Shown here: one piece after another, positions 2,100 through 40,650 of the stretch
Layout: each line of letters starts with the position of its first letter
Position numbering within the stretch: position 1 is the stretch's first letter
Source of the DNA: a virus
Virus record (IMG/VR): IMGVR_UViG_3300018055_000007
Span: 1 to 42,638 of that record
Strand: one strand, 5' to 3'
DNA: 42,638 bases
Position numbers and translations under genes: made by a program
The notes under the pieces: model-generated
Database searches by the model: none
Told to the model about the DNA's origin: nothing
The model's input: the letters and a program-made list of their open reading frames with translations, nothing else

Positions 2100-3178
2100 G
2101 CCGGCACCGCCTCCGGCTCGTTGCCCCACCCAGCCCACCCTGCGCGAAGTTCGCGCGTGAAGAGTTCCACGCGATCTTTCTTTCCGAAGTCCGGATACAT
2201 GGATTCCAATAACTCGATCACTTGCACCGGTTTTCGACTGTGAAACCCGTCTCGCTTCATTCGGATCACTGAGGACACACGGTCTGACGGCTCAGGCACT
2301 GGGAGCGTGCCCCTGGCTGCCACCAGGAGCAGCTCGTGCTGTTGGCGAAAGTAGTAACCCATCCCGATCTTTTCCTTGTCCCAGACAGCGCACGTGCGGT
2401 AGGTAAACCCCCACGACTCGATCACGCGCATCGCCTCAGCGAGTTTCGGACTCGTGGCCCACAGATAGAGCACCGCGTCGTCAGCGATGATTTCCCTTAC
2501 CGATCTACCGTCGCTATCTGGGCACTCACAGATCCAGTCAAGGCTCTTGGTCGGATATTGGTTTTCGATCGCGCGGGATTCCGTCTTGACGTGCTCGTAC
2601 GTCCAGGGCGGATCGGCATAGAACAACCGGAACAACCCTTTCGGAAATGGACGAGACGGTCGTGCGTTTCGGTTGTCCTCGCGTTCAGTTTCCCGCTCGG
2701 CGTTCCGCGCGTTGCGCTTGGCGTCCTTCGACGGATCGGCCTTGGTGTTGAACCAGGCTGGATCGTTTTCTGGTTGATCGGCCTGTGGCGCATTTGCGCC
2801 AGTCGCCTGCGGGATCTCTGGAGTTTCTATCTCCCCCACAGTTACAGGCGGCGCATTTGCGCCACGCTCACCGAGATCGCGCGCAACGGTGTCCTTGCCA
2901 ACCCCTAGAACTTTGGCTGTCGCCCTCTGGCTTGCCTCTATCGCTTGAAGGCGCTTCGCTAATTTCTTCCGCTGGTCGATCGCTATTCTGAATTCAGAGA
3001 AGTCGATCGTTCCCAGGAATGAGTTGATGTCATCGAAGCCGCCACCGACGTATTTCCAGCGATCCTCATCGAGTAGCCATTCCAACTCACCACACGCCCG
3101 TTCGAACGTGTAGCCGCTGATGTGAACGGCTTCAAGGAGGCGGCCGTGTACTGTGTTCGGAGTTTCTACGATCGACAA
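2096..3178 (-). CDS. MT-A70 family adenine DNA methyltransferase with N-terminal HTH
   Basis: About 360 residues. The C-terminal half is an MT-A70 N6-adenine methyltransferase: catalytic DPPW near residue 190, later LYLWATSPKL, AMRVIESWGF, and a Ser/Arg-rich FHSRKP segment near the end. The N-terminal ~105 residues contain an HTH-like stretch (QRATAKVLGVGKDTVARDLG), then an Ala/Pro/Asp/Arg-rich linker, a ParB-like arrangement seen in phage MT-A70 enzymes. It probably methylates phage DNA against host restriction (inference). The start is uncertain: TTG at 3178 has GTGGGG 8 nt upstream and is preferred; GTG at 3187 or 3229 would add 3 or 17 residues but lack a clear ribosome site. Confidence 0.85.
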   Translation of the reverse strand: MSIVETPNTVHGRLLEAVHISGYTFERACGELEWLLDEDRWKYVGGGFDDINSFLGTIDFSEFRIAIDQRKKLAKRLQAIEASQRATAKVLGVGKDTVARDLGERGANAPPVTVGEIETPEIPQATGANAPQADQPENDPAWFNTKADPSKDAKRNARNAERETEREDNRNARPSRPFPKGLFRLFYADPPWTYEHVKTESRAIENQYPTKSLDWICECPDSDGRSVREIIADDAVLYLWATSPKLAEAMRVIESWGFTYRTCAVWDKEKIGMGYYFRQQHELLLVAARGTLPVPEPSDRVSSVIRMKRDGFHSRKPVQVIELLESMYPDFGKKDRVELFTRELRAGWAGWGNEPEAVPA

Positions 3179-3279
3179 GACAAGCACCCCACATTCGGAT
3201 TGGTGGCGTAGACGGTTCGACGGCAGCACAGCCAGGACACGAGCACGGCTTCGATCTGCTTGTCGTCGTAGGTTCTCAT
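3166..3279 (-). CDS. 37-residue Cys-rich micro-protein
   Basis: A short reading frame starting at an ATG that overlaps the C5 methyltransferase stop (ATGA) and ending with TAG just inside the next methyltransferase gene. The product has four cysteines, as a CC pair and a C-x-x-C (residues 18-19, 32 and 35), and could bind one metal ion. The same coupling pattern is used by almost every verified gene here, which is the main evidence that it is translated. It may also serve mainly to couple translation of the two methyltransferases. I recognise no family. Confidence 0.5.
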   Translation of the reverse strand: MRTYDDKQIEAVLVSWLCCRRTVYATNPNVGCLSCRS

Positions 3280-4898
3280 TGGACAGTCACCCTGCTCGCG
3301 AGATTGCACGACACGATGGCAGCGGCCAGGTGCGGCGGGACTGAATTGCCGACCAGGCGTGTCTGGGTGGACTTCGTGAACGGCTTCGAGCGCCCAGCTC
3401 CAAGGTCGATAACGTAGGACTGAGGGAACCCCTGGAGCGCGAATAACTCGCGCGGGGTCAGCATTCGCATTCCGATGTCGACGAGCACGTACTCCTCACC
3501 GGCGACGGTGACGAACACGAGACCCATACGTGGCTTTGTGGTGAGCGTGCCGGCCGGGTCGAAGAGCGAGCGTGCGACGCCAGTCCCGAAGAACTTCACC
3601 AGGAAGGCTCGGACCTCGGCGACGTGCGTCCCCCCGGCGGTCAGCGTCGGCGCTGGCACGCGGAGGTCCTGGGACGTATTGACGTGGTCCAGGAGTCCGC
3701 CGCGCAGCTTCACGAGATGGGACGTCACGAGCGCCTTGGTATCGCGAGCGGTGATGGTGTCGACGGGTATCGTGAACCTTTGCCCAGTCGCCTCGTGTCC
3801 ACCGTTGTGCTTCGCGAGGAACGCCGCGACGAGCGCGCCCTGACTGCCTACGGCCGTGATGGTGTTGAACGGCTCCTGAATGTCGAACACGCGCGGGGCT
3901 TGCCCGAGTCGTTCCCCGTTCCGCGTGTTGATGAGCGTCGGCGCGACCAGGGCGAACTCGCCACGGTGGGAACACGTCAGGGTCCGGATGGGCTCATGGA
4001 CCGAATGCACGCGGTCGTCGCCCTGGTGGAGTACCGGCACGATGAACGGGTCCGCCGTGTCGAGCACATACCGGCCCACGCCGCGCGCGATGCGTCTGAG
4101 CGTGGCCGTGGCGAGTGGGCGACGTGGCGACGGAACGCCGTACGCCTGCCCCCACGCCTTGGCCTGCGCGGGTGTCAGGAAGATGGACGGCACAGGGAGG
4201 CCGAAATCGATGCACTCGGCCGCCGTGCGGAACGGCTGTGCACTCCGCGGGCCATGCGTCTGTTCCGGCCACACGATCGGCCGCCCATCGCAGCGGGCGA
4301 CCATGATGAGACGTTGCCGAGACGTCGGCGATCCGTAGTGTGACGCGCGGAGTTTCCGCCATTCAATCTTGGTGTAGCCGGCCGCGCGCAGCCGCGCGAC
4401 CATGCGACGCCAGTGACTCCCGCGCTTCGAGGGGTCCGGCCGGAACTCCCCCGGCGCGACCTCGACGAGCGGGCCCCAGTCCTCGATCTCCTCGACGTTC
4501 TCCATGAACAGGATGCGAGGCTTGGCGACTAGGCTCTCGGCCCACCGCACCATGACCCAGGCGAGACCCCGGATGCGCCGGGCCTTGCGCTTGTCGCGGA
4601 ACGGCATCCCTCCCTTGGCCTTCGAGTGATACGTGCAGTCTGGGGAGAACCACGCGAACGCGAACCGTCGGCCGTTGGCGACCGTGTCGGGGTCGTAGTG
4701 GTAGACGTCGCCCTTCAGATGTCGCGTGGTCGGATGGTTGACCTCGTGCATCGCCAGCGCGTCGGCGTCGTGGTTGATGGCGATGTCGGGTGAGCGGCCA
4801 AGCGCCATCTCGATACCAGTGGATGTGCCCCCACCGCCAGCGAAGAGGTCGGCGCACGCTTCATCCGCGTAGAGCCGTATCAGTGGTGCGCGTGCCAT
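3276..4898 (-). CDS. C5 cytosine DNA methyltransferase
   Basis: A 540-residue C5-methylcytosine methyltransferase with ordered motifs: I, DLFAGGGGTSTG (residues 17-28, SAM binding); IV, FSPDCTYHS with catalytic Cys88; VI, MENVEE (133-137); VIII, SRQRL (about 194-198); X, GNSVPPHLA near the C-terminus. Motif IV is SPDC rather than the common PPCQ, a variant typical of phage enzymes of this group. The long middle region is the target-recognition part. It probably protects phage DNA from restriction. The ATG at 4898 overlaps the previous stop (TGATG), so the 15-residue upstream extension is not used. No cognate restriction enzyme is adjacent. Confidence 0.92.
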   Translation of the reverse strand: MARAPLIRLYADEACADLFAGGGGTSTGIEMALGRSPDIAINHDADALAMHEVNHPTTRHLKGDVYHYDPDTVANGRRFAFAWFSPDCTYHSKAKGGMPFRDKRKARRIRGLAWVMVRWAESLVAKPRILFMENVEEIEDWGPLVEVAPGEFRPDPSKRGSHWRRMVARLRAAGYTKIEWRKLRASHYGSPTSRQRLIMVARCDGRPIVWPEQTHGPRSAQPFRTAAECIDFGLPVPSIFLTPAQAKAWGQAYGVPSPRRPLATATLRRIARGVGRYVLDTADPFIVPVLHQGDDRVHSVHEPIRTLTCSHRGEFALVAPTLINTRNGERLGQAPRVFDIQEPFNTITAVGSQGALVAAFLAKHNGGHEATGQRFTIPVDTITARDTKALVTSHLVKLRGGLLDHVNTSQDLRVPAPTLTAGGTHVAEVRAFLVKFFGTGVARSLFDPAGTLTTKPRMGLVFVTVAGEEYVLVDIGMRMLTPRELFALQGFPQSYVIDLGAGRSKPFTKSTQTRLVGNSVPPHLAAAIVSCNLASRVTVQ

Positions 4899-5104
4899 CA
4901 GCGGGCTACCTCTTTCGCCGCGTCTTCTTCGGCCGACAAGCACCCTTCACAGATGAACGAGGGATTGGTCGTCCCGTTCGGTAAGTGGAACTCTGGACAG
5001 ATCACGTCAGGGGTTCCGTCGTAGTTCTCTTCCCAGGTGCCAGAGCACTCGGTTTTCGTCCCGCAGACGGAGCAGGGATGATGGTGAGGTTTCACGCGCG
5101 GCAT
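4898..5104 (-). CDS. small zinc-binding protein
   Basis: A 68-residue protein with cysteines in C-x-x-C pairs: CSVC at residue 11, CSG, C at about 36, and CEGC near 52, plus His residues close to the N-terminus. This suggests one or two zinc ribbons. The end is acidic. Overlaps on both sides (TGATG) place it firmly in the operon between an HNH protein and the C5 methyltransferase. Function unknown. Confidence 0.65.
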   Translation of the reverse strand: MPRVKPHHHPCSVCGTKTECSGTWEENYDGTPDVICPEFHLPNGTTNPSFICEGCLSAEEDAAKEVAR

Positions 5105-11348: not shown

Positions 11349-13154
11349 TCACGGCGCCGGCGGCGCCGTCACAATCGTTCGAAGCTTTCGAACTGGGGGG
11401 GCGGCAACCCACGTCTCGTACCGCTCCCGCGCAGGCAGGATCCCGAGCTTCGTCGCACCGGTGGGGTCCACCCACGGCCAGGCGTGACTCCCGAAGAATG
11501 AGGGCTTTGCCGAGAGGTAGAGCGAGTTCGGCAGCGCCTGCGCTGGACGGTCCCACTTCACCGTATTGGTCAGGTAGTCCCAGTTGCCGTCGCGCAGCAC
11601 GGTCGACAGCACCTTCGGGTCCTGGGCTTGCTCCCAGTGCGACGGCGCGTAGCCGAGCTTGAAGATGTGGCCGGTGGCCGCGATCCACTCGTCATACAGC
11701 CACCCGGTCATCTTGCCGCTCTCGCCAAGGACGTTCCCGATAAACGAGTGCCACCAGGACCCGAACATGAGCCCCGCTGCGCGGCCGTTGACTTGGCCCG
11801 GGTAGTCGCGCCGGATGCCGACCAGGTGGTTCCGGAAAATCGTCATCCCGAAGGAGCTGCCGTGCGTGTCGTCGCTGTCGTAGTTGTGCGACTGATTGCC
11901 CTCGAACAGCACGTGGTGCGGGCCGATCATGTGGCTCGCGTTGATGCCGACCTCGACCCAGTCCAGGTAATTCCCGATGAGCGAATTATCCATGTAGTTG
12001 TAGCCCACCACGGAACCGGCTCCGCCAGACTTCGCCGCCATGACCTTGTTCACGCCCAGGACAATGTTGTTTTCGATGAGGGCTTCAGACGAGGCCCATG
12101 CGAGACCGATCCCGTAGCAACCGCCACCCGGATACTGATGCACGCAGTCGTGGACGTAGGAGTCGCGCACTTCGACGCGGAACGACCCATTGACGATGAC
12201 GCCTTCGCCGAGCCACGCCGTGCTCTCGACGTTCTTCGCCCACGCATACGCGGCGGCTTCGAACCGCACATTGCTGTCTGATCCGCCGGTGACGGTAAGG
12301 TCTTCCAAGCCGCCGCCCCTCAGGTGCGGCCCACTCCACCGTGTCACCTGTGCCACTTTAGCGGTGGGATACGATGTGTGCAGTGGCGTCGTGAACGTTA
12401 TCGTGTTCCCGCTGACCGATGCGATCTCTTTCACCTCGTTGACCGGTCGGCCGCTGCGACTGAACCAGACGAGCGAATCAGGGAAGGGATCGTCTGCAGG
12501 GTCGGGCGGGTTGTGCTTGGCGAAGACGACGCGATCGGAGGCCCAGATCTTCGCCGTTGTCGGCGCGCCATTGCGATTCGGCAGATCGATCCATGTCGCT
12601 GTGTTGTAGTCATCTGCATCGAGGAACACGAATTGACCGGCGACGTAGCCCGCTGCGCTCGTCACCGTGATCGCGTGGCTGCCCTTCGCGCCATCCGATG
12701 ACAGATTCACCGTCGACGCCGTGTCGAGACTCGACCAACGTGCCGGACCGATGATCACGATCGGCTCGTATTCCTCCGCCATGTAGGAGCCCTGGACCGC
12801 GCCGTTGGTCTTCCGCAGCGTGGTGCTGCCGGCGCCGGCGCCGCGCAGCGTCACCGCCTTGTTGATCAGGATGTAGTTGTTGACGAGGAACGTGCCGACC
12901 GAGAGCTGTACCGTCTGTCCGGTGGGACACGCCGCGAGGGCGGCCTGAATCCCTGCCGAGCTCTCCGACGCGCCGTTGCCATAGGTGGAGGCCTGAATCG
13001 TGGCGCAGACGGTCGCGCGCGCGGGAATGCCAGTCTTCACCCCAGGCGCCCAGGTCGTGCGCCCCTCGGTCGGGACGATACTGGTATCCACCTGGGCGGC
13101 CGCGGGCACGGCGCAGCCCATCACGAGCGCGAGGACGCTGACCCACCTGCTCAC
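11349..13154 (-). CDS. secreted right-handed beta-helix protein (pectate-lyase-like fold)
   Basis: 601 residues. Residues 1-21 (MSRWVSVLALVMGCAVPAAAQ) are a Sec signal peptide. From about residue 50 comes the start of a pectate-lyase-superfamily helix: C-A-T-I-Q, a glycine-rich loop, SSAGIQAALAACPTGQTVQL, FLVNNYILINKAVTLRGAG. Many Asn/Gly/His-rich coil repeats follow (VEVRDSYVHDC, ALIENNIVLG, VLFEGNQSHN, MTIFRNHLVGI). A signal peptide is not expected on a virion tailspike, so this may be a lysogen-expressed secreted protein acting on polysaccharide (inference). The GTG start overlaps the previous stop (GTGA). It is the last gene before the convergent repressor operon. Confidence 0.72.
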   Translation of the reverse strand: MSRWVSVLALVMGCAVPAAAQVDTSIVPTEGRTTWAPGVKTGIPARATVCATIQASTYGNGASESSAGIQAALAACPTGQTVQLSVGTFLVNNYILINKAVTLRGAGAGSTTLRKTNGAVQGSYMAEEYEPIVIIGPARWSSLDTASTVNLSSDGAKGSHAITVTSAAGYVAGQFVFLDADDYNTATWIDLPNRNGAPTTAKIWASDRVVFAKHNPPDPADDPFPDSLVWFSRSGRPVNEVKEIASVSGNTITFTTPLHTSYPTAKVAQVTRWSGPHLRGGGLEDLTVTGGSDSNVRFEAAAYAWAKNVESTAWLGEGVIVNGSFRVEVRDSYVHDCVHQYPGGGCYGIGLAWASSEALIENNIVLGVNKVMAAKSGGAGSVVGYNYMDNSLIGNYLDWVEVGINASHMIGPHHVLFEGNQSHNYDSDDTHGSSFGMTIFRNHLVGIRRDYPGQVNGRAAGLMFGSWWHSFIGNVLGESGKMTGWLYDEWIAATGHIFKLGYAPSHWEQAQDPKVLSTVLRDGNWDYLTNTVKWDRPAQALPNSLYLSAKPSFFGSHAWPWVDPTGATKLGILPARERYETWVAAPPVRKLRTIVTAPPAP

Positions 13155-24382: not shown

Positions 24383-25012
24383 TCAGCCTACCCTCGCACC
24401 CTTCGACAAATTGCAGAACGCGTGTGTCGCTTGGATGTTGTCGGTGGTGTGCGTGCCCCCGCGTGACAGCGGAATCTTGTGATCGAAATGGATGCCGAAT
24501 AGATCGAATGGCTTCGCGCAAATAGCGCAGAGACCATTCGACGTCTTCAATACTTTCTTGTAGTCGATATTTTCTACTTTGGTTTGCTGTTGAAGTGCTC
24601 TCCGTCGCGCCACGTATTCTCTCTTTTTAATGTGGTGGACGGAGTTCCAAGCCTTCTTGTACGCCTTCATGTAGACAGATAGTTCAGCGCGTTTCTCAGT
24701 GGTCTGCCTTGCTCGATAGGCTTTCTTGTACGCACTAATCCGATCTTTATTAGCCGCGTGATAAGCCCTGCCTTGCGCCCTAATTTCAGCGCGATTCGCC
24801 TCTAGATACGCCGCGTTGTACGCTTTTTTCTTGTCTTTGTCGTAACGATCTTTGGCTCGTGCTAACTGCTGTTCCTTGTGCTTCGCATACAACGCCTTAC
24901 GTTTCTCTGGATGAGCAAGCCAGTACGCCTTCTGTTGCGCAAGGATTCGCTCCCTGTTAGCCGCATATCTGATGCGGCTGCGAGCGTTCTTCTTTTCTCT
25001 GTTCACGGCCAT
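24383..25012 (-). CDS. HNH endonuclease with Lys/Tyr-rich repeats
   Basis: 209 residues. The first 140 are a highly basic repetitive helix: the motif Y-x-A-(A/N)-(N/H)...(R/K)-x-x-(A/Y) is repeated about every 12-15 residues (RIRYAANRERILAQQKAYW; KAYNAAYLEANRAEIRAQG). The last 50 are an HNH core: LCAICAKPFDLFGIHFDHKIPLSRGG, then NIQATHAFCNLSKG. Basic repeats plus HNH occur in free-standing homing endonucleases. The DNA is clearly more AT-rich than its neighbours. It separates the G/GT chaperone genes from the tape measure, which are adjacent in most siphoviruses. Confidence 0.85.
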   Translation of the reverse strand: MAVNREKKNARSRIRYAANRERILAQQKAYWLAHPEKRKALYAKHKEQQLARAKDRYDKDKKKAYNAAYLEANRAEIRAQGRAYHAANKDRISAYKKAYRARQTTEKRAELSVYMKAYKKAWNSVHHIKKREYVARRRALQQQTKVENIDYKKVLKTSNGLCAICAKPFDLFGIHFDHKIPLSRGGTHTTDNIQATHAFCNLSKGARVG

Positions 25013-27226: not shown

Positions 27227-27570
27227 GCCACGACCTCCACCGCGACGACCTTCATTTCCCTGGTGCGCCCGTCCACCTGGTGCACCCCTGTGACATTAGC
27301 GCTCCGGACGCGCCCCGCCTGATCCGTCCAGCGCAATCGCGTCTGCATCGTGACGCCAGGATGGAACCGCATCCGCACGATCAAGGCGTCCGTCGCGATG
27401 ACCGACCCTGACCGAATGCGCTCCAAGTCGCTCGGCGCTCCAGACTGAATCTCTGCCTTCATCGTCGGTGGAGACAACGGGGTTTCCGTGTCCTCGTGAC
27501 CCCCATCGTCATCAGGGCTAGTCGTCACATGAAACAGCGACACGCGCTCGCGGAGGCGGCCGATGTTCAT
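27223..27570 (-). CDS. head-tail adaptor (stopper) protein
   Basis: 115 residues beginning with RLRERVSLFHVTTSPDDDGGHEDTE, then beta strands ALIVRMRFHPGVTMQTRLRW and the final segment VTGVHQVDGRTREMKVVAVE. The start M-x-I-G-x-L-R-x-R-V-x-x and the short beta-barrel are typical of SPP1 gp16-like/head-closure proteins. It plugs the connector after packaging. Overlap of 4 nt with both neighbours. Confidence 0.75.
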   Translation of the reverse strand: MNIGRLRERVSLFHVTTSPDDDGGHEDTETPLSPPTMKAEIQSGAPSDLERIRSGSVIATDALIVRMRFHPGVTMQTRLRWTDQAGRVRSANVTGVHQVDGRTREMKVVAVEVVA

Positions 27571-27866
27571 GCGATCACCGGCGCCCGAGTCCGAGCCAAG
27601 ACACGCCCGATCGCCTGCCAGACCTTCTCGTCAGGCTCCATGTCGTCGCCGCGGTGTTCCCAGAGGTGCGTCAACATCAGGAGCACCGCCGATCGCACGC
27701 GCTTCGGGACCGTGTCAGACGTCCAGGTGTCATCGGCCAGCTCTGCGAGGTAGTCCGTGACGATGTCGCTCGCCTCGAGCACCTTGGCGACAATCAACGT
27801 GTCCTCGGCGTCCGTCGTGATCTCCAGATGACGCTTGGCGTGGCTGAGATCGACCAACATCGGCAT
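27567..27866 (-). CDS. head-tail connector (gp6-like)
   Basis: 99 residues, all helical: VDLSHAKRHLEITTDAEDTLIVAKVLEASDIVTDYLAE, then KRVRSAVLLMLTHLWEHRGDD. This matches HK97 gp6/Phage_connect-type adaptors (A-K-x-H-L-x-I, D-x-x-I...A-x-x-x-V). It should form the ring under the portal. The next gene upstream in the operon is unexpectedly a sugar transferase-like gene (TGATG overlap). Confidence 0.78.
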   Translation of the reverse strand: MPMLVDLSHAKRHLEITTDAEDTLIVAKVLEASDIVTDYLAELADDTWTSDTVPKRVRSAVLLMLTHLWEHRGDDMEPDEKVWQAIGRVLARTRAPVIA

Positions 27867-28606
27867 CAGGCCAGTCCTTCCGGTTGCCAGGCGCGTGACG
27901 TGAACTGCGCATCGTTCACGACTGCGCTCGCGGTATAGAGGCCGCTTTCCACCCCGACGTGGCGCACCATGTGGGGCTCACTGACGTATCCGAACCGCGA
28001 CGCCGGCCAGCGGTCGAGCGCCCAGTAGCCAATCAACTTGTCGAACCCCTTATCCGGCTCGTTCTGAAACCGGGCGCTGCGTGGTCTCCAGTGCTTGCCT
28101 TTCACCGCCGCCCAGGCCGCACAGTCTCGGGCGTCCTCAGCGCGCAGGGCGATGGCTTGCGATCCCCGCTGTTCCTGAAGGTCGTAGAGCGCCAGACCAG
28201 GCGCACGGCCTGGGCGCCTTCCGCGACCGAAGGCGCAGAACCGATACACATGCACGTCCTTCCGCTGGTGTCGGTCGAGCCACCGCAGCACCGACCCTGG
28301 GAAGTCATCGCAGACGTCGATGTCATCCTCCAGCATCAACAGCCATTCCGCCGGGGCCGTGTCCAGGACCGCGATCTGCGCCAGCCCGTTCGCGTTCGGG
28401 GTCCGGCGCGCGGTCGGCACATGGCGCACGACGGGATGGCTGCCTATTTCCTTCGACAGCCAGGTGTCATCCGGATCCGTGAGCACGAGATGGACGGACT
28501 CGGCCGCGACGCCATGCGCGAGCAGGCTTCGCACGGTCCGGCCCAGATAGTTCTTTTTCTTCGGGGCTCGGTTCACCGTGCGGATCGTGATGGTGAGCCT
28601 ACGCAT
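27866..28606 (-). CDS. glycosyltransferase-like protein (GT-A fold)
   Basis: 246 residues beginning with RRLTITIRTVNRAPKKKNYL, then LVLTDPDDTW, then WLLMLEDDIDVCDDF, a DxD-type metal-binding strand of GT-A glycosyltransferases, and later VYRFCAFGRGRRPG. The C-terminal half (DARDCAAWAAVKGKH, FDKLIGYWAL) is helix/beta. Donor and acceptor sugars cannot be deduced. It is the last gene of a coupled cassette and overlaps the one before by 8 nt (ATGCGTAG). Confidence 0.6.
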   Translation of the reverse strand: MRRLTITIRTVNRAPKKKNYLGRTVRSLLAHGVAAESVHLVLTDPDDTWLSKEIGSHPVVRHVPTARRTPNANGLAQIAVLDTAPAEWLLMLEDDIDVCDDFPGSVLRWLDRHQRKDVHVYRFCAFGRGRRPGRAPGLALYDLQEQRGSQAIALRAEDARDCAAWAAVKGKHWRPRSARFQNEPDKGFDKLIGYWALDRWPASRFGYVSEPHMVRHVGVESGLYTASAVVNDAQFTSRAWQPEGLA

Positions 28607-29582
28607 GGGCGTACACCTGGTGCGGAGCGTGGAGCGCCCGAATCGACAGCGCCCCATAGCCTTGCTCGCTCAAGAACAATCGCCTCGCCGTCTGGACGTG
28701 CCGCCGCAACTTGTCGATCGCGGGCTGGTCGCCATAGACCGTCTTCGCGCGGACCCCGAGGAACGGCGGCAGGTAGGCATACCCGCCATACGTGCCGACG
28801 AACTTGGACGCACCGGCGATGGCCCGTGTCTGCACGTCCAGGTTCGTCTCCGGTGTCAGGCGATGCGAGATCCGATGCAAGTCCGGCGACTGCACGTCCA
28901 AACAACTGAACTCGTGGTGGTCGTCGCACTGCACACCGGTGTTCAGGAGCACCACGGGGCTCTCTTTGAGCAGCCCTCGGACCGTGGTGGAGACGATACG
29001 CCGCGCGTCCGGGGTGTTCGGACAGATGGCGCTCGTGTAGAACCGGACCGCGACATACCGATCCGGTAACCCGTCCAAGGGCGTCACAGGCTTGAACGGA
29101 CGAGGCCGCAGATACGCCCGGAATTCCGGCGTCCACGGACGGTGTGCCCAGAACGCCTGATACATCAGCGACGGGTGCAAGATCTCCACGTCACCACCGA
29201 GGTCAGACGTGAGCCGATGCAGGATGTCCCGATCCAACTGACTCATCCAGAAGTGCTTCATCGCCCCGGTCGCCGCGATCCGTTCTTGGTTCCCGCGTCG
29301 GAATTCCTCGGGTGTCATCACCGACAAGATGTCGCGATACCGGCTGCACAGGTGCGCGTACCACGTCCGCGCGCCCCCGCGCGACACCACGATCAGACGA
29401 TCCGGGTCGAGGGCATACTCCCGCTGTGCCCACGCCACGAACGGGATCCAGTACAGCAGCTCATACCCGACCTCCGTCAGCCACGGGCCGACGATGATCG
29501 GACCCGTCCCGTCACGCATCCGCTCCAGCGTGGCGCGCAGGTTGTGGATCGCCTCCTGGGCGATGACGGGATCGACCCTCAT
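28599..29582 (-). CDS. putative glycosyltransferase
   Basis: 327 residues. The beginning (GPIIVGPWLTEVGYELLYWIPFVAWAQREY) with a P-W-x-x-E-x-G-Y-E-L motif, then LIVVSRGGARTWYAH and later FVGTYGGYAYLPPFLGVR, resembles family-61-like and related glycosyltransferases found in sugar clusters. The late G-T-Y-G-G is the usual nucleotide-binding spot of the C-terminal domain. ATGA overlap with the FkbM gene fixes the start. The sugar specificity is unknown. Confidence 0.55.
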   Translation of the reverse strand: MRVDPVIAQEAIHNLRATLERMRDGTGPIIVGPWLTEVGYELLYWIPFVAWAQREYALDPDRLIVVSRGGARTWYAHLCSRYRDILSVMTPEEFRRGNQERIAATGAMKHFWMSQLDRDILHRLTSDLGGDVEILHPSLMYQAFWAHRPWTPEFRAYLRPRPFKPVTPLDGLPDRYVAVRFYTSAICPNTPDARRIVSTTVRGLLKESPVVLLNTGVQCDDHHEFSCLDVQSPDLHRISHRLTPETNLDVQTRAIAGASKFVGTYGGYAYLPPFLGVRAKTVYGDQPAIDKLRRHVQTARRLFLSEQGYGALSIRALHAPHQVYAHA

Positions 29583-30193
29583 GCGTAGGCCACCCATCGC
29601 CGAAAGTCGGGATCCCGTCGCTTCTGCTTTTTCGAGCGCGGCACGTCAGCGGGATCGAGCGCGGGCAGGAGTCCGGCCTGGACGAACACCAAATTCGAAC
29701 GGGTCGAGGCGGTGAGGCTGTAGCCCTTCCGCTCCGCGAGCGTGGTCAATGCCAGAACGCTGGCTCCGTAGTAGTTCGTACCGTCCCAGAACCGATCCGG
29801 GTCGTAGGGCACCGCGCGCGCTTTGGTCGGTCCCCACTTGGGGTTGAACTCGATCACGACCACCCGAGGCCGGTGCGCCAATGCCTGCCACACCCACAAG
29901 TCGTTCCCGTCGATGTCGATCGACAGCAAGTCAAACTCGTAGGGCACCCGGTATTGCTCGAAGACGTCATTGATATTCTCGGCGGTGATCTTCACGCCGT
30001 GGACGATCGAGGCGTGTGGCGCCACATCGAACAACACCACATCCCAGCCCGTCAGACGGAAGTGCGCGGTATTCGAACCGTGCAGGCCGTCGATAGCCCC
30101 GAACTCCACCGCGACGCGGTTCGTCGTGCCGATCTGATCGAAGATCCGGATCAGCACCCGATCCTCTTTCCCTTGCGCGAGCATCGTCGTCAT
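29579..30193 (-). CDS. FkbM-like SAM-dependent methyltransferase
   Basis: 204 residues. VAVEFGAIDGLHGSNT is the SAM-binding strand and loop, followed by GWDVVLFDVAP, ITAENINDVF, FDLLSIDIDGNDLWVWQAL and VVIEFNPKWGP. This is the FkbM-type methyltransferase pattern common in glycan clusters, where it methylates sugars. I started at ATG 30193 (ATGA overlap). The extra 78 residues of the open frame are low-complexity Arg/Ala and rejected. Confidence 0.72.
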   Translation of the reverse strand: MTTMLAQGKEDRVLIRIFDQIGTTNRVAVEFGAIDGLHGSNTAHFRLTGWDVVLFDVAPHASIVHGVKITAENINDVFEQYRVPYEFDLLSIDIDGNDLWVWQALAHRPRVVVIEFNPKWGPTKARAVPYDPDRFWDGTNYYGASVLALTTLAERKGYSLTASTRSNLVFVQAGLLPALDPADVPRSKKQKRRDPDFRRWVAYA

Positions 30194-30786
30194 CGCGCCT
30201 TGCTCAATCCGCCGGTCTCGTAGGCGTAGCGCTTCTTCGGTGCGCGATACCAGCTCGGCTTGAGGACCGTCACCCGCACGCCGCGCCCGCGCGCGAAGCC
30301 GATCCAGTAGAGAATCCCCCGGTGATCGAGCATGTGCGCCGGCCGTTGGCTCACGCCGTGCCCGTGCAGCACGATGTGGTCGTAGCCGCGCAGGATCGCG
30401 TAGGGGATCATGTAATCCACCTGGCACGTCCAGTGTTGGCCGTCTTCTGTGGGGTCAGGCGGAAACGCCGCCTCCACGTCCTCGATCGGAAACCGTCGCG
30501 AGGCAGGAATGGACGGGTCGACGGTCAACATCCAGATCGGCCGGCCGTTCTTGGGAAGCGTGCGATACCACGCGAGCGTGTTCGGGCGCTTGATCTTGAC
30601 CCCTTCATAGAAGGGCGTCCGTTCCACCGGGTGCAGTTCGAACCATTCGTCCCAGTCGTCGAGCGTCGCCTTGTGCTTGGCGTACTGCTGCTGCGTGTGG
30701 GTGCAGACCCAGAGATCCGCGTCGGGGAATTGCACCTTCGGCGACACGGGCTCGATCACCTTGCCGTGGATGACGACGGTCTTCAT
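30190..30786 (-). CDS. putative sugar-transferase-related Rossmann protein
   Basis: 198 residues. ADLWVCTHTQQQYAKH, then WFELHPVERTPF, WMLTVDPSIPASRRFPIEDVE, and YMIPYAILRGYDHIVLHGHG. The F-E-L-H-P, pattern P-x-S-x-R-(F/Y)-P-(I/L)-E and Y-M-I-x-x-A-I-x-x-G-Y-x-x-I form a set I have seen in phage proteins related to MptE/DUF115 and sialyltransferase-like groups. A direct function cannot be given. Coupled by ATGA to both neighbours. Confidence 0.5.
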   Translation of the reverse strand: MKTVVIHGKVIEPVSPKVQFPDADLWVCTHTQQQYAKHKATLDDWDEWFELHPVERTPFYEGVKIKRPNTLAWYRTLPKNGRPIWMLTVDPSIPASRRFPIEDVEAAFPPDPTEDGQHWTCQVDYMIPYAILRGYDHIVLHGHGVSQRPAHMLDHRGILYWIGFARGRGVRVTVLKPSWYRAPKKRYAYETGGLSKAR

Positions 30787-31445
30787 GAGGCCACCGCCGT
30801 CTCAGTCTTCACGATGGCTCCAATGAGCAGCCCTGGATACCGATCCGCCAGCACACGGAGCGCTCGCTGGTCGGCGTCCACATGCCCGCGAATCGTCTGC
30901 AACTTCGGCAAGTAGTGATACCCGGCTGACCACGAGAACCCGACGAGGCGGACCCGTGACGCCCCGCTCCACAGCGCCAGCGCCGCGGTGAAGATCCCCG
31001 CTGAACAGGCCGTGTTGACGCCTGGACTGTGGTCCTGACGGTCGCAGATTTCATACTCGAGCCACCGCTTCACTGGCTTGTCGATGACCGACCACGACTC
31101 CAACGACGCGCCACTCTTCCGGAGCCGTGCCAGTGACTCGTCCTCGGTCGGTCGGATCGGGCTGCGCAGGAACGCGACGTGTTTCACCGCGCGGTTGGCA
31201 CCCTGCCGGCACATGGTCAGGTGAAGGCTCGCCGCCGACGGCTTGCTGTTGAGCACCCAGACATCCGGCACGCCCGAAACGCTGCTGATCGCGCCGTTGA
31301 CACAGATCACGACCTCGCTGGGGTCGGTCCTCGCGTGCTTGGTTGGCAGCGGCGCAGACCCGACGACAACACAGCGCCGATTGGCCACAATGGCCCCGAA
31401 CGCCTGCAGTTGCGCCTTGTCCGGCGTGGTGGTCAAGGGCACCAT
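30783..31445 (-). CDS. MptE/DUF115-like or GT42-like Rossmann protein
   Basis: 220 residues. RRCVVVGSAPLPTKH resembles the G-S-G-P-S-L nucleotide loop, followed by VVICVNGAISSVSGVPDVWVLN, another feature of this superfamily (sugar transferases such as GT42 and flagellin-modifying Maf proteins share it). Later GVNTACSAGIFTAALALWSG and VRLVGFSWSAGYHYL are the second half. It shares layout with the next two genes, but is not closely similar. TAATG overlap. Confidence 0.5.
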   Translation of the reverse strand: MVPLTTTPDKAQLQAFGAIVANRRCVVVGSAPLPTKHARTDPSEVVICVNGAISSVSGVPDVWVLNSKPSAASLHLTMCRQGANRAVKHVAFLRSPIRPTEDESLARLRKSGASLESWSVIDKPVKRWLEYEICDRQDHSPGVNTACSAGIFTAALALWSGASRVRLVGFSWSAGYHYLPKLQTIRGHVDADQRALRVLADRYPGLLIGAIVKTETAVAS

Positions 31446-32107
31446 TACGACGCCACCGCCATGCGTTCCGCGAAGACTTCGGCCAGCGGACGCATCGGGA
31501 ACGACACCAAGGCGCTCCCGGATGTGCAGTTCACGATCTCGACGCCAGCCTCGGCCAACGGCTTCACGAGCGTCTTGAACGCCGTCAGGCAGGCCGCAAC
31601 AGGAGGCACGGTGTGATCGGGGTGTTGCCCGAAGAAGTGATCGCGGGACCGCTTCTTCTGGTCTACGCGCATGTCGTAGCCGAGCAGGACAATCCGACTC
31701 GGCCCAAGATGGACTGCGAGGTTGATCGCCTGATACCCGCTGTTGAACCCCGTTCGAACGGCGGACGGGTCCAGCTCCAGCCCGTAGTCACCGGTATAGC
31801 GAAGCAGCCGCACGCCGGGATACGGCTTCAGTGTGTATTTCTGGCCGGTCTGATGCGCCTCACAGCTCGGAAACGTCGGATGGTTGCCTTTGTAGTTCTT
31901 GTCCGCCCAGCCCCACCACTTGTTGTCGCAGGCGTAGAGGACGTCCGCCCACGGCGCCAACTTGTAGGCGTCGTTGACCGCGATCACGACCGCCTTCCCG
32001 CGGCAGGCGTCGACATCCTCCGCACGGAGCGATGGACCGCTGCCCAAGCAGACGACCGTCGACCCTGTGAAGAGACGCGGCACGGTGGAATAGACCCGCT
32101 CCTTCAT
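31445..32107 (-). CDS. GSGPSL-type Rossmann glycosyltransferase-like protein
   Basis: 220 residues beginning (after a short lead) with TVVCLGSGPSLRAEDVDACRG, the clearest of the three nucleotide loops, followed by VVIAVNDAYKLAPWADVLYACDNKWW. G-x-G-P-S-L with V-N-x-A and A-D are typical of GT42/Maf/MptE-like proteins that handle nucleotide sugars. Then HLGPSRIVLLGYDMR and HFFGQHPDH. The acceptor could be a virion protein (inference). ATGA overlap with the collagen-like gene. Confidence 0.55.
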   Translation of the reverse strand: MKERVYSTVPRLFTGSTVVCLGSGPSLRAEDVDACRGKAVVIAVNDAYKLAPWADVLYACDNKWWGWADKNYKGNHPTFPSCEAHQTGQKYTLKPYPGVRLLRYTGDYGLELDPSAVRTGFNSGYQAINLAVHLGPSRIVLLGYDMRVDQKKRSRDHFFGQHPDHTVPPVAACLTAFKTLVKPLAEAGVEIVNCTSGSALVSFPMRPLAEVFAERMAVAS

Positions 32108-33111
32108 GCGTCGGTCCCGTTCCGCCCGTCCTTGCCGTCTTTCCCGTCGCGTCCGTTCCTCACGGCGAGCCGCCAGGACTTCGCCTTCACGTCACCCGGC
32201 CAGGTTGCCGTCTCCGTTTGTGCGATCCAGAACTTGCCTTCATAGGTCACGCCAGCGCCTCGTGGATAGGTGCGGCCGCGCTGCCAGACACCCGCGTCCC
32301 ACGGGATCGGAATGGGCTGTTCCTTGACCTGATCGCCACGGCTGAACTTGGCGACGAGTCCGCGCGCCTCATCGAAGAGGAAGTCCACATCATCGAAGCC
32401 GAGACCGTCGACACCATCTCGCCCAGGTGCGCCGTCCTTGCCGTGCAGGCCGTTTGAGCCGTCCTTCCCGTCGATCCCAGGTGCGCCGTCCTTGCCGTGC
32501 AGGCCGGCCGCTCCGTCGCGCCCATTGAGGCCCGCAGATCCGTCCTTGCCGTCGCGTCCGTCACGACCTTGGAGGCCGTCCTTGCCAGGCGCACCCTCTT
32601 TGCCCTGGAGTCCCGCGGCGCCGTCCTTCCCGTCGAGACCGTGGAGGCCGTCTATCCCGTTCAGCCCGTGCGTGCCATCATCGCCGTCACGTCCCGGCGC
32701 GCCGTCTTTCCCGTCAAGGCCGGCGTGCCCATCCTTGCCGTTGACGCCGCCCGATCCAGGTAGCCCTGGTGCACCGTCCTGACCATTCAGGCCATCCTTG
32801 CCGTTGAGTCCAGCGGCTCCGTCCTTGCCGTCTAATCCGTCTCTGCCGTCCTTGCCTGGCAGGCCTTGAGCTCCGTCCTTCCCGTCGACACCGGGCAGAC
32901 CGATCTCGCCACGAGGTCCAGGAATCACCGGCCTCGACTCGATCGCCAACAGCCGCGCGCGCGTATCAGCGGCGAAGTCCTTCAGTGCGTCCACAGCATC
33001 AGGCGCCACGACAGGACGCGCCTCGAGGAGCGCAATCTTCGCCAGCAGTGGCGCCGTAGCGTCGTGAATGGCGATGGAAATCACGTCCGCGAGTTCCGCC
33101 GTCAACGTCAT
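32104..33111 (-). CDS. collagen-like virion protein with sugar-binding-like end
   Basis: 335 residues. Residues ~68-241 are an uninterrupted run of about 58 G-X-Y triplets, rich in G-K-D, G-A-P, G-L-N and G-R-D, so a trimeric collagen rod about 50 nm long at 0.29 nm per residue is possible. The N-terminus is helical and could trimerise or attach to the virion. The C-terminus (WDAGVWQRGRTYPRGAGVTYEGKFWIAQ, then WRLAVRNGRDGKDG) resembles carbohydrate-binding CBM5/12-type modules. It sits between the portal and the glycan cassette with ATGA overlaps. A surface fibre is likely. Confidence 0.75.
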   Translation of the reverse strand: MTLTAELADVISIAIHDATAPLLAKIALLEARPVVAPDAVDALKDFAADTRARLLAIESRPVIPGPRGEIGLPGVDGKDGAQGLPGKDGRDGLDGKDGAAGLNGKDGLNGQDGAPGLPGSGGVNGKDGHAGLDGKDGAPGRDGDDGTHGLNGIDGLHGLDGKDGAAGLQGKEGAPGKDGLQGRDGRDGKDGSAGLNGRDGAAGLHGKDGAPGIDGKDGSNGLHGKDGAPGRDGVDGLGFDDVDFLFDEARGLVAKFSRGDQVKEQPIPIPWDAGVWQRGRTYPRGAGVTYEGKFWIAQTETATWPGDVKAKSWRLAVRNGRDGKDGKDGRNGTDA

Positions 33112-34469
33112 ACGTGGGCCATCTCGGCCACCTTTCGACGGATGGTCATCAGGAACTCTCCGGCCGGCATGGCTTTCTCTTCCGGCTCTGGATCGGGCTC
33201 AGGTTCGGGTGGCGGCGCAGGCTTCGCGCCGAAGGCCTCATCCGATGCGTCTCGTCGAGCGAGTGCGGCGATGCTGTGGTACTGCTGCTGCGCGAGCGGG
33301 GACGCCCCGCCTTCGACGGGACCGAGATCCCAATACCGTTTCCGCACCTCGTCGTAGGACATCCCGGCGCCGACGGCTTTCGACGCGGCTTCCGATTTGC
33401 CTGCGGTGTCCATCTTGAAGAGGCCATCCAGGTCGAACTCCACGCCGAGCGTCTTGCCAGGCACCGTCGTCAACTCCAGCCCTTCGTCGAGGCAGAGTTC
33501 CAACTTCTCGATGTGCGTCTGGAGACAGTCCGTGTAGTACTGGAGGTTGAAGACTTCCGCGTTGTTGTGCGTCGGATCCGCGCCGATGCCCACCTTGTGC
33601 CGTGGCATATGGAAACACTTCGCGATGTCCTCGTCGGTCATGTGCAGTTGTTCGACGAGCTGCGACTGCTCGGCCGTCATGGCGATCGTCGTGAACTTCA
33701 TCCCGCCGGTGAGGACCGCGATCGACCCAGGTTCACGCTCATTCCACCGGAGCAGGAGTTCGCTGGCCTGCTCTCGGGTGATGTCCATCGGGACTTCAAG
33801 AATCCCGGCCGGTCGCGATCCGCTCGCGAGGAAGGAATGGGCCGTCCGCCGACTCGTGAGGCCATCGATCGCGGGATACCCCGCCGCGTAGATCGGTGAG
33901 ACACCGACCAAGGGATGAAAGAGCGGACAGTGTCGGTCGTGGATGATCTCCCGTGCAGGCACCACGATCGACTGCTTGATCATGGCCAGTTCATCGATCG
34001 CCAACTGGTAAAACACGGATCCATCTGGAGCGACGAGTGGTGTGATGCGATGCGGGTCGAGAATGTGAAGGGCCCGGACGACTTGGCTCTCGCCTCGCTC
34101 CTTGAGCACGTAGGTATTGCCGTGCCCAAGCTTGGACAGCATCCACCACTCGAAGAACTCGATCCGCGTCTGATAGTCGTTCGGCTTCCGCAGAACAGGC
34201 GCACACTTACCGCTGTCGGTCTCCGTCCAGATACCTTCGTCGTCACGCTCGACCAGCTTCGGGCGGAGTTTTGCGATGTCACCCGCGATCAGCGTCAGGC
34301 AGGCGTAGAGCGTGGGATTCTGAAAGGCGGTATCAACGGCGACGTCTTCGTTCCGCTGCCAAGCGCCGGTCGTCAGTTCTTGGATGAGCGGCCACCAGCC
34401 CCTCGATCCGGGCACGGACGTCAGGGCCGCGGCCTTCGTCCGGGTGATCGAGAAGCCGAGAATGTTCAC
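33108..34469 (-). CDS. portal protein (HK97 family)
   Basis: 453 residues. It begins LGFSITRTKAAALTSVPGSRGWWPL, then FQNPTLYACLTLIAGDIAKLRPKL, HGNTYVLKERGESQVVRALHILDPHRI, AREIIHDRHCPLFHPLVGVSPIYAA, then SGSRPAGILEVP and HMPRHKVGIGADPTHNNAEV. These are the family-typical segments of HK97-type portals. It forms the dodecameric ring for DNA passage. The GTG at 34469 overlaps the previous stop; a long upstream extension is Arg-rich noise. Confidence 0.93.
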   Translation of the reverse strand: MNILGFSITRTKAAALTSVPGSRGWWPLIQELTTGAWQRNEDVAVDTAFQNPTLYACLTLIAGDIAKLRPKLVERDDEGIWTETDSGKCAPVLRKPNDYQTRIEFFEWWMLSKLGHGNTYVLKERGESQVVRALHILDPHRITPLVAPDGSVFYQLAIDELAMIKQSIVVPAREIIHDRHCPLFHPLVGVSPIYAAGYPAIDGLTSRRTAHSFLASGSRPAGILEVPMDITREQASELLLRWNEREPGSIAVLTGGMKFTTIAMTAEQSQLVEQLHMTDEDIAKCFHMPRHKVGIGADPTHNNAEVFNLQYYTDCLQTHIEKLELCLDEGLELTTVPGKTLGVEFDLDGLFKMDTAGKSEAASKAVGAGMSYDEVRKRYWDLGPVEGGASPLAQQQYHSIAALARRDASDEAFGAKPAPPPEPEPDPEPEEKAMPAGEFLMTIRRKVAEMAHV

Positions 34470-34723
34470 TCGGGATCCTGGACAGCCACGGTCCGGCGGC
34501 GATAGACGCGCTTCGGGCGGACAGGCTCGACGATACCGGGTTCGTCTAGATGGCCGTCGGGACCTTCGGGACAGGTTGTCCCGTCGCGGTTGCGACGGCG
34601 AGCTTTTCCGAGCAACACCAACACGCGCGCGTGATCCTCGCTGTACGCCGAAAAAGACGCCCCGATGGCGTACCGTTTCCCGTCGTATTCGCACGGTGCC
34701 GTGGCGATGAGGGGTACCAACAA
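34466..34723 (-). CDS. small head protein, unknown
   Basis: 85 residues. The N-terminal third (VPLIATAPCEYDGKRYAIGASFSAYSEDHARVLVLLGKA) is a short alpha/beta pattern of the kind seen in small head proteins with no assigned role, and the rest is Arg/Pro-rich. Two TTG codons (34723, 34720) can start it; GGAG lies 10 nt before the first. The position after the capsid hairpin suggests expression below the capsid level. Confidence 0.5.
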   Translation of the reverse strand: MLVPLIATAPCEYDGKRYAIGASFSAYSEDHARVLVLLGKARRRNRDGTTCPEGPDGHLDEPGIVEPVRPKRVYRRRTVAVQDPE

Positions 34724-34795: not shown

Positions 34796-36688
34796 CTATG
34801 GAGAAGCCAGGCTCGGGCCGTAGGCGGCGGTATCGATCACCGCGACCACGGTCGGCCGACGCTTCTGCCACCGGATCCACCGCTCGGCGCGGATGCCGAT
34901 ACAGTTGCGCTGCCAGAGGTTGAACGTCGGCGCGCCAGGCGACCCGCCCATCATGTCGAGGGTGGCCTGGTTGCTCGCGTCGAGCGTCACGCGACCGTCA
35001 TCCGCCAAGAAAATCTCGGACGGCTTGAAGATCACGAGGTGCCCGGCGTCAACTGAATCGGACACGATCACCTGATACCCGAACAGCGTGCCACCCGTCG
35101 GGGTCATGGCGATCCCGGTGGGCTGCTGGCCGAGGGCGTTGGTGAACATGCTGAGACCCAGCGCGATCGTCGGCGTCGTGACGACTACGAGGCCCATCAG
35201 GGAGATTTCCGCGGCCACCAGCGTGGCCAGGGCGGTCTTGAAGTCGTAGAGGAACGACGCCAGATCCGCGCCCGTCGCATTCGGCGCACTCACGCCGTTG
35301 GTGATCGACGCCGGGTTATTCGCACCGGCCGACACACCGACCTGGATGAACTGTGCATCCAGGAACCGCGCGCACTGCTCGACCATATCCGTTCGAACCG
35401 TGGCCTCGGCGTCAGGGCGCGACAACCGGACCAACTCCTCGGTGAGCACGATGATCCCGGCCGCCTTGCTCTTGCCGAGCGTGTCGCGCTGAAACGAAAG
35501 TTCGCTGACTTGCTTGGTGCCAGCTTCACCGACCCACCCGAAGGTGGATCCACCGGTCTGCGTGATGATCGGGATGTTGAATGGCACCGGACGGAACCCG
35601 GAGACCTTGCCGATGATGGTCTCAGGCCGCAGGAGTTCGACGAACTCGGTCTCGATCGTGTTCGGGTACGCAAGTTCACCACCCCACGACGGGCTGGCGA
35701 CTTCGGTTGTGCCAGGATCCGCCTTGAAGTGCATCGCCTTCGCGTAGGCGGCGACTTCCGGCGTGTCCGTGAACCGTTTCGCATACGCCAGTGTGTCCGA
35801 CAGGCTGCCGCGACCGGCGGCCACGGCCATCGCGTAGCGGGTAAAGAGCTGGCCCTTGATACGCGGTAGCACTTCAACGACTGGCTTTGCGGTTCCAGTC
35901 CGCGTGGCCGCAGGAATCAGGGGACGCGACTGGATAGCCTGTGCATCCTCGACCGTCTGCAGTTGCTTGACGCGCGAGGTGAGCGCCGGCACTTCCTTCA
36001 GGAGTGTGTCGCGTTCGGTGACGTCGTCACCGTCGAGACCGCCGTTGGTTTCGTCTTGTGACATGAGCGCCATCAACCGATCGTTTTTCACTTGTAGATC
36101 GGTCTTGGCCCCCGTCAACTGTTCGGAGACATTCATGGTCTGTGCTTTCGATGAAATCCCCAGAACACCGGGGGAGGAAGACGGTCGCCCAATGCCGGAC
36201 ACGGCGGGAGCGGACGCGTCAAACTGTTTGACGGCGGTGATGTTGGCCTCGACGTTCATCGGGATCGTCACGGCGCTTAGCTCACCCCAGAACCATTTGA
36301 GGTGACGAACGGCCTTGGAACCAGCGACAGGGACGAACTCGATCGGTTTCCAGCCAATGCTGAGACCGCGCACGAGTGGAGGGCTGGCCGTGAAGGCCGC
36401 CCACGCATCGTCGACGAGGCTTTTCAGGCGCCCAGGTGTCGTGACCTTCGAGACGCGCGCCTTGATGTGGATCCCGTCCGGACGGACCTCGGCGGCGAAC
36501 ACTTCACCGATCGGGGCTTGTGCGTTGTGGAACCAGAGGAAGGGCATCGGCAGCTTGAACTGCGCGCCCTTGGACTCCATGATGTCGCCGCCACGATCGA
36601 GGCTCGGGGTCGAGGCGATGCCTTCGACAATGCGCTGCGCCTGGTCGATGGACTTGATTTCGAGAAGGCTGTACGCCTTGTTGAGCAT
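34796..36688 (-). CDS. fused prohead protease and major capsid protein
   Basis: 630 residues. Residues ~15-160 are an HK97-type prohead protease of the S78/U9 group: VEGIASTPSLDRGGDIMES, WFHN with His54, then LVRGLSIGW with Ser110, and ELSAVTIPMNVEAN. Residues ~185-265 are a charged scaffold-like segment (SEQLTGAKTDLQVKNDRLMALM...VPALTSRVKQLQTVEDA). Residues ~280-630 are the HK97-fold capsid: AYPNTIETEFVELLRPETIIG, SFQRDTLGKSKAAGIIVLTEELVR, ARFLDAQFIQVG and NLWQRNCIGIRAERW. Protease, scaffold and capsid are in one chain, so self-cleavage must separate them. The start codon lies inside a hairpin. Confidence 0.92.
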   Translation of the reverse strand: MLNKAYSLLEIKSIDQAQRIVEGIASTPSLDRGGDIMESKGAQFKLPMPFLWFHNAQAPIGEVFAAEVRPDGIHIKARVSKVTTPGRLKSLVDDAWAAFTASPPLVRGLSIGWKPIEFVPVAGSKAVRHLKWFWGELSAVTIPMNVEANITAVKQFDASAPAVSGIGRPSSSPGVLGISSKAQTMNVSEQLTGAKTDLQVKNDRLMALMSQDETNGGLDGDDVTERDTLLKEVPALTSRVKQLQTVEDAQAIQSRPLIPAATRTGTAKPVVEVLPRIKGQLFTRYAMAVAAGRGSLSDTLAYAKRFTDTPEVAAYAKAMHFKADPGTTEVASPSWGGELAYPNTIETEFVELLRPETIIGKVSGFRPVPFNIPIITQTGGSTFGWVGEAGTKQVSELSFQRDTLGKSKAAGIIVLTEELVRLSRPDAEATVRTDMVEQCARFLDAQFIQVGVSAGANNPASITNGVSAPNATGADLASFLYDFKTALATLVAAEISLMGLVVVTTPTIALGLSMFTNALGQQPTGIAMTPTGGTLFGYQVIVSDSVDAGHLVIFKPSEIFLADDGRVTLDASNQATLDMMGGSPGAPTFNLWQRNCIGIRAERWIRWQKRRPTVVAVIDTAAYGPSLASP

Positions 36689-39792: not shown

Positions 39793-40650
39793 TTACTGAA
39801 TCAAATGTTTAGAAAGATCTGATTTTGTCAATTCGAGACTGGGCTGGTTCGGGAGGCATGAGGCCAAACTTTTTTGAGGCCCCCCCTCTATTCCAAGACG
39901 GAACTGTCCGCCTATCGTCGCGCCCTTTCTCGCGTTACATCGACGACAGAGGCACTGGACGTTGGACCATACATGCCCGGGTGACTCTGGGTGCGCCAAA
40001 GGGATGATGTGGTCTATCTCAGGTGCGCACGGGTCGTATGTTCCACGCAGCCGCCTGGGAGTAGATACTCCGCAGATCTGGCACCGCCACTTGTCTCTGG
40101 TTCCGACGGAGATAGGCCCACATCGTTCGTATGGCAATCCTCTTGCCCTGGCGCGCTCGCACGGCTTGGTTCCGTGGCGTTCGCGCATCCTTCTACGGGC
40201 AGCTTTCATCGCGGTAGCGCGACAATATGCCGAGCACAGGTCGCGGAGTCCTTTACCTAATGGCTTGACGAACCGCCCACCGCACACGCGGCACGACACC
40301 TCTAGTCCCATTCGGGCCATTCTTCGCCGCGATATTTCAGACCGTTTACTCAGAAGGTCTCGTTCCCTCTCTTGTCGCTTGTTCTCACGCTGAGCCTCAA
40401 TGCGAGCACGAGAAAGGGCGGTCCGCTTCGCTCCACTACATTTCTTGTTACAGAACCTAGCCGCGTTCTTGTCGTGATTGTTCCTGGTGAACGTACGCCC
40501 GCACCATTCACATACGCACGAGCGATGTTCCGGTGGACGTCCCTTTAGAGCGCCAACCACGATCCGGGCACGTACGCACTCCTGAGAGCAACACAGGCGG
40601 AACCTAGAATGCTCGAATGACTTACCGCAGTGATTGCATTTTCTTACCAT
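39793..40650 (-). CDS. HNH endonuclease with three zinc-finger-like units
   Basis: 285 residues. There are three Cys-rich units: CNHCGKSFEHSRFRLCCSQEC (3-25), CEWCGRTF...CNKKC (47-70) and CRVCGGRF...CSAYC (about 120-145). The HNH core follows: WRCQICGVSTPRRLRGTYDPCAPEIDHIIPLAHPESPGHVWSNVQCLCRRCNARKG. It starts with ATG directly after the previous TAG. The sequence is more AT-rich than the genes around it. It looks like a homing endonuclease inserted between the 110-residue HNH gene and TerS. Confidence 0.88.
   Translation of the reverse strand: MVRKCNHCGKSFEHSRFRLCCSQECVRARIVVGALKGRPPEHRSCVCEWCGRTFTRNNHDKNAARFCNKKCSGAKRTALSRARIEAQRENKRQERERDLLSKRSEISRRRMARMGLEVSCRVCGGRFVKPLGKGLRDLCSAYCRATAMKAARRRMRERHGTKPCERARARGLPYERCGPISVGTRDKWRCQICGVSTPRRLRGTYDPCAPEIDHIIPLAHPESPGHVWSNVQCLCRRCNARKGATIGGQFRLGIEGGPQKSLASCLPNQPSLELTKSDLSKHLIQ

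Follow-up and report, generated by a model that had tools for sequence, protein, structure and literature searches.

What role is played by six genes, several of them resembling glycosyl- and methyltransferases, that lie in the midst of the head operon of a virus? The window, by which we denote the whole analysed stretch of 42,638 bases from an IMG/VR virus record, carries these genes (labelled A-F) on the minus strand as six intact ORFs, preceded by the portal gene with its collagen-like neighbour and followed by the head-tail connector. The head region on this strand comprises the genes for the terminase, a fused protease-capsid protein, the portal and the collagen-like protein, then A-F, followed by the head-tail connector, a head-tail joining gene, a gp10-like gene, a terminator-like gene and a major-tail-type gene (Table 1). 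The reading we favour, with a probability of roughly 0.6, is that the six genes form a swappable, co-translated module which adds sugars and methyl groups to a virion protein as the particle is built; its enzymatic activity, its donor sugars and a virion protein as its acceptor are what we infer from the evidence set out below.

Table 1. Coordinates of the cassette genes and their immediate neighbours in the window
Feature	Position	Strand	Family match
Portal protein core	33108..34493	-	PF04860, E=2.9e-68; listed ORF extends to 34880
Collagen-like portal-neighbour protein	32104..33111	-	PF01391, 3e-29
Gene A, Maf/GT42-like predicted nucleotide-sugar transferase, 220 aa	31445..32107	-	
Gene B, possible distant A-like protein, 220 aa	30783..31445	-	
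Gene C, conserved protein, family-less, 198 aa	30190..30786	-	
Gene D, predicted FkbM-like methyltransferase, 204 aa	29579..30193	-	
Gene E, predicted GT-B fold, GT9 heptosyltransferase-like, 327 aa	28599..29582	-	
Gene F, predicted GT-A-like glycosyltransferase, 246 aa	27866..28606	-	
Head-tail connector (Ad1), after the cassette	27567..27866	-	PF05135, 4.9e-6; phrog_40, 4.4e-11

The starts of D, E and F were reset to suit coupled junctions (30193, 29582 and 28606), and all junctions were re-read. Neighbouring genes overlap by 1, 4 or 8 nt at every junction from the portal through gp10: ATGA (-4) joins the portal to the collagen-like gene, the latter to A, B to C, C to D and D to E; TAATG (-1) joins A to B and TGATG (-1) joins F to the connector, while E and F overlap by 8 nt. 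The preliminary description of the locus, which had every junction coupled and the cassette translated together with the head genes, is borne out by these overlaps. Its expectation that a connector normally lies near the portal/capsid region agrees with the relatives lacking A, in which a tail-terminator or major-tail gene is reached just 1.1-1.9 kb past the portal; the portal-connector gap of the window is therefore a real insertion. In GC and GC3 content A-F equal the structural genes (GC3 0.80-0.86). Compared with the nearest relative, L005, whose terminase is 98.6% identical, each of the six genes displays a dN/dS of 0.08-0.20, which indicates purifying selection and genes that are maintained and working. 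None of the six products contains a membrane segment (maximal 19-residue hydropathy 1.36). The window proteins that were scanned include no enzyme of sugar-nucleotide synthesis, so that the donors would need to be host-derived.

Several features outside the cassette were recorded along the way. The 630-aa major capsid protein (34796-36688) is fused to a protease domain, as annotated in PAJU2 ORF003. Two DNA methyltransferases of the MT-A70 and C5-cytosine types (2096-3229 and 3276-4943) probably serve restriction protection, and a protein of 601 aa (11349-13154), which begins like a signal peptide and contains a pectate-lyase-type domain, is possibly a tailspike or depolymerase. HNH endonuclease-type genes lie beside the structural operon (24383-25012 and 39793-40650), the former displaying, by inspection, a long repetitive basic N-terminus.

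The functional reading is anchored by gene A. Its product exceeds the gathering cut-off of PF01973 (35.5 against 34.6 bits), a domain common to the Maf flagellin glycosyltransferases and MptE, a pterin pyrophosphokinase, and matches phrog_4603, labelled sialyltransferase, at 3.7e-41. A Foldseek search of the PDB with its AlphaFold model (pLDDT 91) returned a sole match below 1e-3, the Maf protein 5mu5 of Magnetospirillum (E=2.3e-4, probability 1.00). A profile built from 40 relatives ranked CstII, a GT42 sialyltransferase, first in the PDB, weakly (E 0.06-0.1), with an alignment that pairs the N-terminal GPS motif and the TSG...LxGxD segment. The family match, the fold and the profile ranking agree with one another, since the central domain of Maf itself resembles CstII (PMC11339370). 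Motifs of the donor-site type (GPS and SG) are also kept, as are D145 and a conserved His. A is thus predicted to be a Maf/GT42-like nucleotide-sugar transferase, and the GSGPSL/Maf type proposed for it earlier fits. Maf enzymes glycosylate flagellin at Ser/Thr with CMP-nonulosonates, and CMP-Kdo is usable as well (PMC11339370). They are three-domain proteins linked to flagellin, whereas A, sharing their PF01973 domain and fold, corresponds to the central domain only, is phage-encoded and lies beside head genes; we class it as Maf-like and not as Maf for lack of the three-domain architecture and the flagellin link. The likeness to GT42 CstI/CstII extends to the two aligned motif regions, at a profile E of only about 0.06.

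Among the remaining genes, F is largely supported as a GT-A-like glycosyltransferase, as had been proposed, by a GT-A-type motif (E93 D94 D95) that is invariant in 10 relatives, some as low as 28% identity; its family matches are weak (an MGAT4 region at 1.3e-3 and the glucosyltransferase phrog_854 at 2e-3). The GT61-like identity suggested for E, on the other hand, had to be given up. E matches nothing in Pfam at E<=0.1, hence neither PF01075 nor a GT61 model, and its AlphaFold2 model (pLDDT 78.7) has a GT-B fold for which Foldseek finds WaaC (1.2e-5) and TibC (5.8e-5), with TM-scores of just 0.34-0.46 among the best matches. We predict E to be a GT-B protein closest to the GT9 heptosyltransferases and, given the lack of a PF01075 match, do not file it in GT9: it shares the GT-B fold of TibC and WaaC, with low TM-scores and no family match at the sequence level. 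TibC is a protein O-heptosyltransferase. D resembles the FkbM methyltransferases, on weaker evidence than the folds or motifs found for A, E and F; the FkbM motifs are present, and D itself scores under the PF05050 cut-off of 22.7 bits (19.6 bits, E=0.0011), whereas its orthologues G025 and G027 exceed it (23.7 bits), in keeping with the FkbM type named in the preliminary description. Neither E nor F found a match in a tblastn search of isolated phages.

Three of the six products had been taken for Rossmann proteins of the GSGPSL/Maf type, a grouping that holds for A, weakly for B and without support for C. B matches no family in Pfam, PHROG or NCBIfam; its alignment with A by hhalign (E=0.0014, probability 17%) and the recovery of the PAJU2 homologue of A by its profile (9e-5) weakly suggest a distant member of the A superfamily. 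C is conserved in orthologues at 44-52% identity and has no Pfam, PHROG family or PDB match; an A-like nature was rejected at an hhalign probability of 0.9%. Together with E, these proteins constitute families not in Pfam, PHROGs or NCBIfam. In L160, L161, L162 and L163 C and B are paired in reversed order, with neither A nor a portal nearby, suggesting that the two work together.

Viral contigs were searched with E, B, C and F as queries. Phages whose portal is only 42-44% identical to that of the window repeat the arrangement of portal, (collagen), A-F in sequence and then connector or head-tail joining gene, and the complete ordered cassette is present in at least 8 further contigs at 40-60% identity, always between portal and connector; this count includes some near-copies of one another, and several further copies end at contig edges. 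Repetition of the same order in divergent phages argues against chance assembly. The L152/L183 copy contains no detectable D, and extra genes inserted in cassette copies are further methyltransferases. Looser sets, in which A is accompanied by swapping glycosyl- and methyltransferases, occupy the portal-connector region of about 30 portal relatives, the partners of A in carriers without B-E being GT2, GT-D, PF13524, GT9, FkbM and other methyltransferases. Of the 48 records with a related portal, 27 have A, and 11 of these also contain GT2 or FkbM genes (including G021, where they lie far from A); none of the 21 without A does. A GT-D family search over the records gave no match and was uninformative, known controls being likewise unmatched.

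About ten switches between presence and absence of A map onto the portal tree, four or more of them on supported branches. L124 and L125 have their capsid and portal in common (the portal at 93% nucleotide identity), but their cassettes are only 72-80% identical and the alignment breaks inside the collagen gene; conversely, L125 and L132 have cassettes 85-88% identical and portals only 77% identical. Replacement of the cassette as one block, joined inside or close to the collagen gene, would be expected to leave such a pattern. Several Kiloniellaceae MAGs (L104, L107 and L109) are syntenic over a head-tail region of phage- or GTA-like type, in which a homologue of A, near 10.0-10.6 kb, follows a tail-terminator-like gene and precedes a GT8-like protein; a conserved prophage or a gene transfer agent could account for this region.

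Isolated phages contain related, shorter sets. In D3 and Psp6 the homologue of A is enclosed by the capsid and connector genes; in PAJU2 it comes just past the adaptor, in CcrColossus next to a tail gene and in P1 within a late operon. In D3, PAJU2 and Psp6 it is accompanied by a 275-aa protein and a methyltransferase (phrog_4603 with phrog_6804 and phrog_6564); the 275-aa protein matched only TibC in a PDB profile search (E=0.3-0.4), and no homology to it was found for E. In P1, pmgO corresponds to A, pmgP is A-like (phrog_4603, 1.8e-5) and pmgQ is a glycosyltransferase. Both sets thus place an A homologue and a second predicted transferase beside structural genes, to which the D3 group adds the methyltransferase; they differ from the window cassette in the absence of B-F orthologues, and their genes are annotated only as sialyltransferase, hypothetical or of putative morphogenetic function. 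Lytic growth of P1 requires none of pmgO, pmgP and pmgQ (PMC10695390), so the effect of such a module may be hard to see. In the Stenotrophomonas phage SOVA965, which has a related portal, the portal and its neighbour are followed directly by the connector and the module is absent. At the DNA level the search of isolated phages returned only a 225-base portal match, and close cultured relatives are therefore lacking. The 'structural protein' label on the A homologue of Eowyn probably came by annotation transfer, and we set it aside.

Which virion protein might be the acceptor? The preliminary description pointed to the collagen-like rod with its Lys-containing triplets. The protein combines about 58 GXY triplets with a C-terminal domain (residues 225-327) common to phrog_1289 (2.4e-17). 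PAJU2 ORF007 belongs to the same family and has no collagen tract; the gene after the portal belongs to a portal-neighbour family whose C-terminal domain is conserved and whose collagen insert varies. In passing, phrog_1289 is labelled portal protein and is really this gene after the portal, and phrog_2271 looks like a portal fused to phrog_1289. The median GXY length is 31 triplets in carriers of A against 8.5 in the others (Mann-Whitney p=4e-6), but only 4 phylogenetically independent supported pairs are available (sign test p about 0.5), which makes the correlation inseparable from shared ancestry. Collagen as a required partner was rejected, since L128, L048, L085 and PAJU2 carry A with few or no triplets. 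The argument from Lys triplets is likewise not supported, GKD (Lys-Asp) triplets being common also in the collagen tracts of phages without A. The window tract contains 4 Ser/Thr in 58 triplets, and the rod is disfavoured as acceptor by this scarcity of the residues on which Maf acts (PMC11339370); it is a possible acceptor. The collagen link is a weak one, a long tract being absent from some cassette carriers as well. Modification of a virion protein remains the best reading of the cassette.

An unlikely alternative, though the most probable of those considered, has the enzymes modify a host glycan such as LPS, capsule or another surface sugar, for instance to block superinfection, with their place in the late operon due to chance. 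Such a role is often assumed for phage glycosyltransferases (PMC10202952), and the GT9 relatives of E act on the LPS core; it fits poorly with a position between portal and tail genes kept across large divergence and with translational coupling to late head genes, a stage at which excluding superinfection brings little benefit. Membrane proteins are usually part of seroconversion modules, whereas none of A-F has a membrane segment. Glycosylation of DNA bases, listed as an option in the preliminary description, is far less probable. The phage does encode two DNA methyltransferases, but no base-hydroxymethylating or thymidylate-synthase-like gene was seen among the window proteins scanned, and the glycosyltransferases are coupled to head genes and not to replication genes.

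Two further alternatives concern A itself. That A, and perhaps B and C, should serve the structure or assembly of the head-tail region while retaining an old transferase fold, with loosely associated partners, appears improbable: the PAJU2 homologue, ORF010, is annotated 'structural protein' and A remains beside head-tail genes, yet A varies together with glycosyl- and methyltransferases, is absent in many portal relatives, retains its donor-site type motifs, D145 and the conserved His, and has a non-essential counterpart in pmgO of P1 (PMC10695390). Slightly less probable again is a cassette that makes or attaches a group other than a sugar, with A working on a small molecule in the manner of the pyrophosphokinase MptE. 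PF01973 takes its name from MptE, and an MptE-type structure appears in the profile search of A at E=0.2; the sole significant fold match of A is nevertheless Maf, and its partners are glycosyltransferases.

Modification of a virion protein is favoured by the ordered cassette always lying between portal and connector, by the fold, family and motif evidence for A, E, F and D, by the glycosyl- and methyltransferases linked to A in relatives, by the isolated phages D3, PAJU2, Psp6, P1 and CcrColossus, which have a functionally similar set next to structural genes, by the absence of membrane segments, and by the precedent of Maf, which glycosylates a protein, flagellin, at Ser/Thr (PMC11339370). 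Counting against it are the weak GT42 match of A (E about 0.06), the presence of a pterin pyrophosphokinase in PF01973, the low TM-scores of E, the two genes B and C to which no function is assigned, and the lack of sugar-nucleotide synthesis genes among the window proteins scanned. Under the favoured reading, A, E and F, expressed late, would draw on host nucleotide-sugar pools, attach sugars to Ser/Thr in a protein of the particle and lengthen the chain; D would methylate a sugar, and B and C would assist, the soluble enzymes acting in the cytoplasm while head and connector assemble. Swapping of enzymes between phages, as in O-antigen loci, would then change the surface chemistry of the particle. 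A broader proposal, which we put forward tentatively and at somewhat below even odds, is that in tailed phages of Gram-negative hosts an exchangeable Maf/GT42-centred island by the portal and connector genes O-glycosylates a virion protein with host CMP-sugars (e.g. Kdo), extends the glycan and methylates it, and that pmgO-pmgP-pmgQ of P1 and orf7/orf12/orf13 of D3 are members.

A further precedent comes from Corndog, a cluster O mycobacteriophage with genes for an O-methyltransferase, two glycosyltransferases and a GlcNAc-transferase between portal and protease, for which capsid modification by the head-operon enzymes was proposed (PMC4351075). Mycobacteriophage capsid and tail-tube subunits carry glycans, according to papers citing Freeman 2023. 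The kind of system is thus already known, from the accounts available, in Corndog-type head-operon modification genes (PMC4351075) and mycobacteriophage virion glycans. Corndog shares with the window the glycosyl- and methyltransferases inside the head operon; its enzyme families differ, its hosts are mycobacteria, and its description mentions neither a Maf/GT42-like A nor a collagen-like neighbour (PMC4351075). To this the window adds a Maf/GT42-like anchor, a gene order that is conserved, three protein families that the databases do not list and a connection with P1 and D3. In the literature we found, virion glycosylation is documented mainly for mycobacteriophages; the proposed role, if true, extends it to many uncultured phages and to classical phages of E. 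coli, Pseudomonas and Caulobacter, and provides a function for P1 genes labelled only 'putative morphogenetic function'. Related blocks beside the structural genes of D3, PAJU2 and P1 make the idea testable in laboratory phages. A swappable coat chemistry would bear on the encounters of phage particles with antibodies, surfaces and defence systems.
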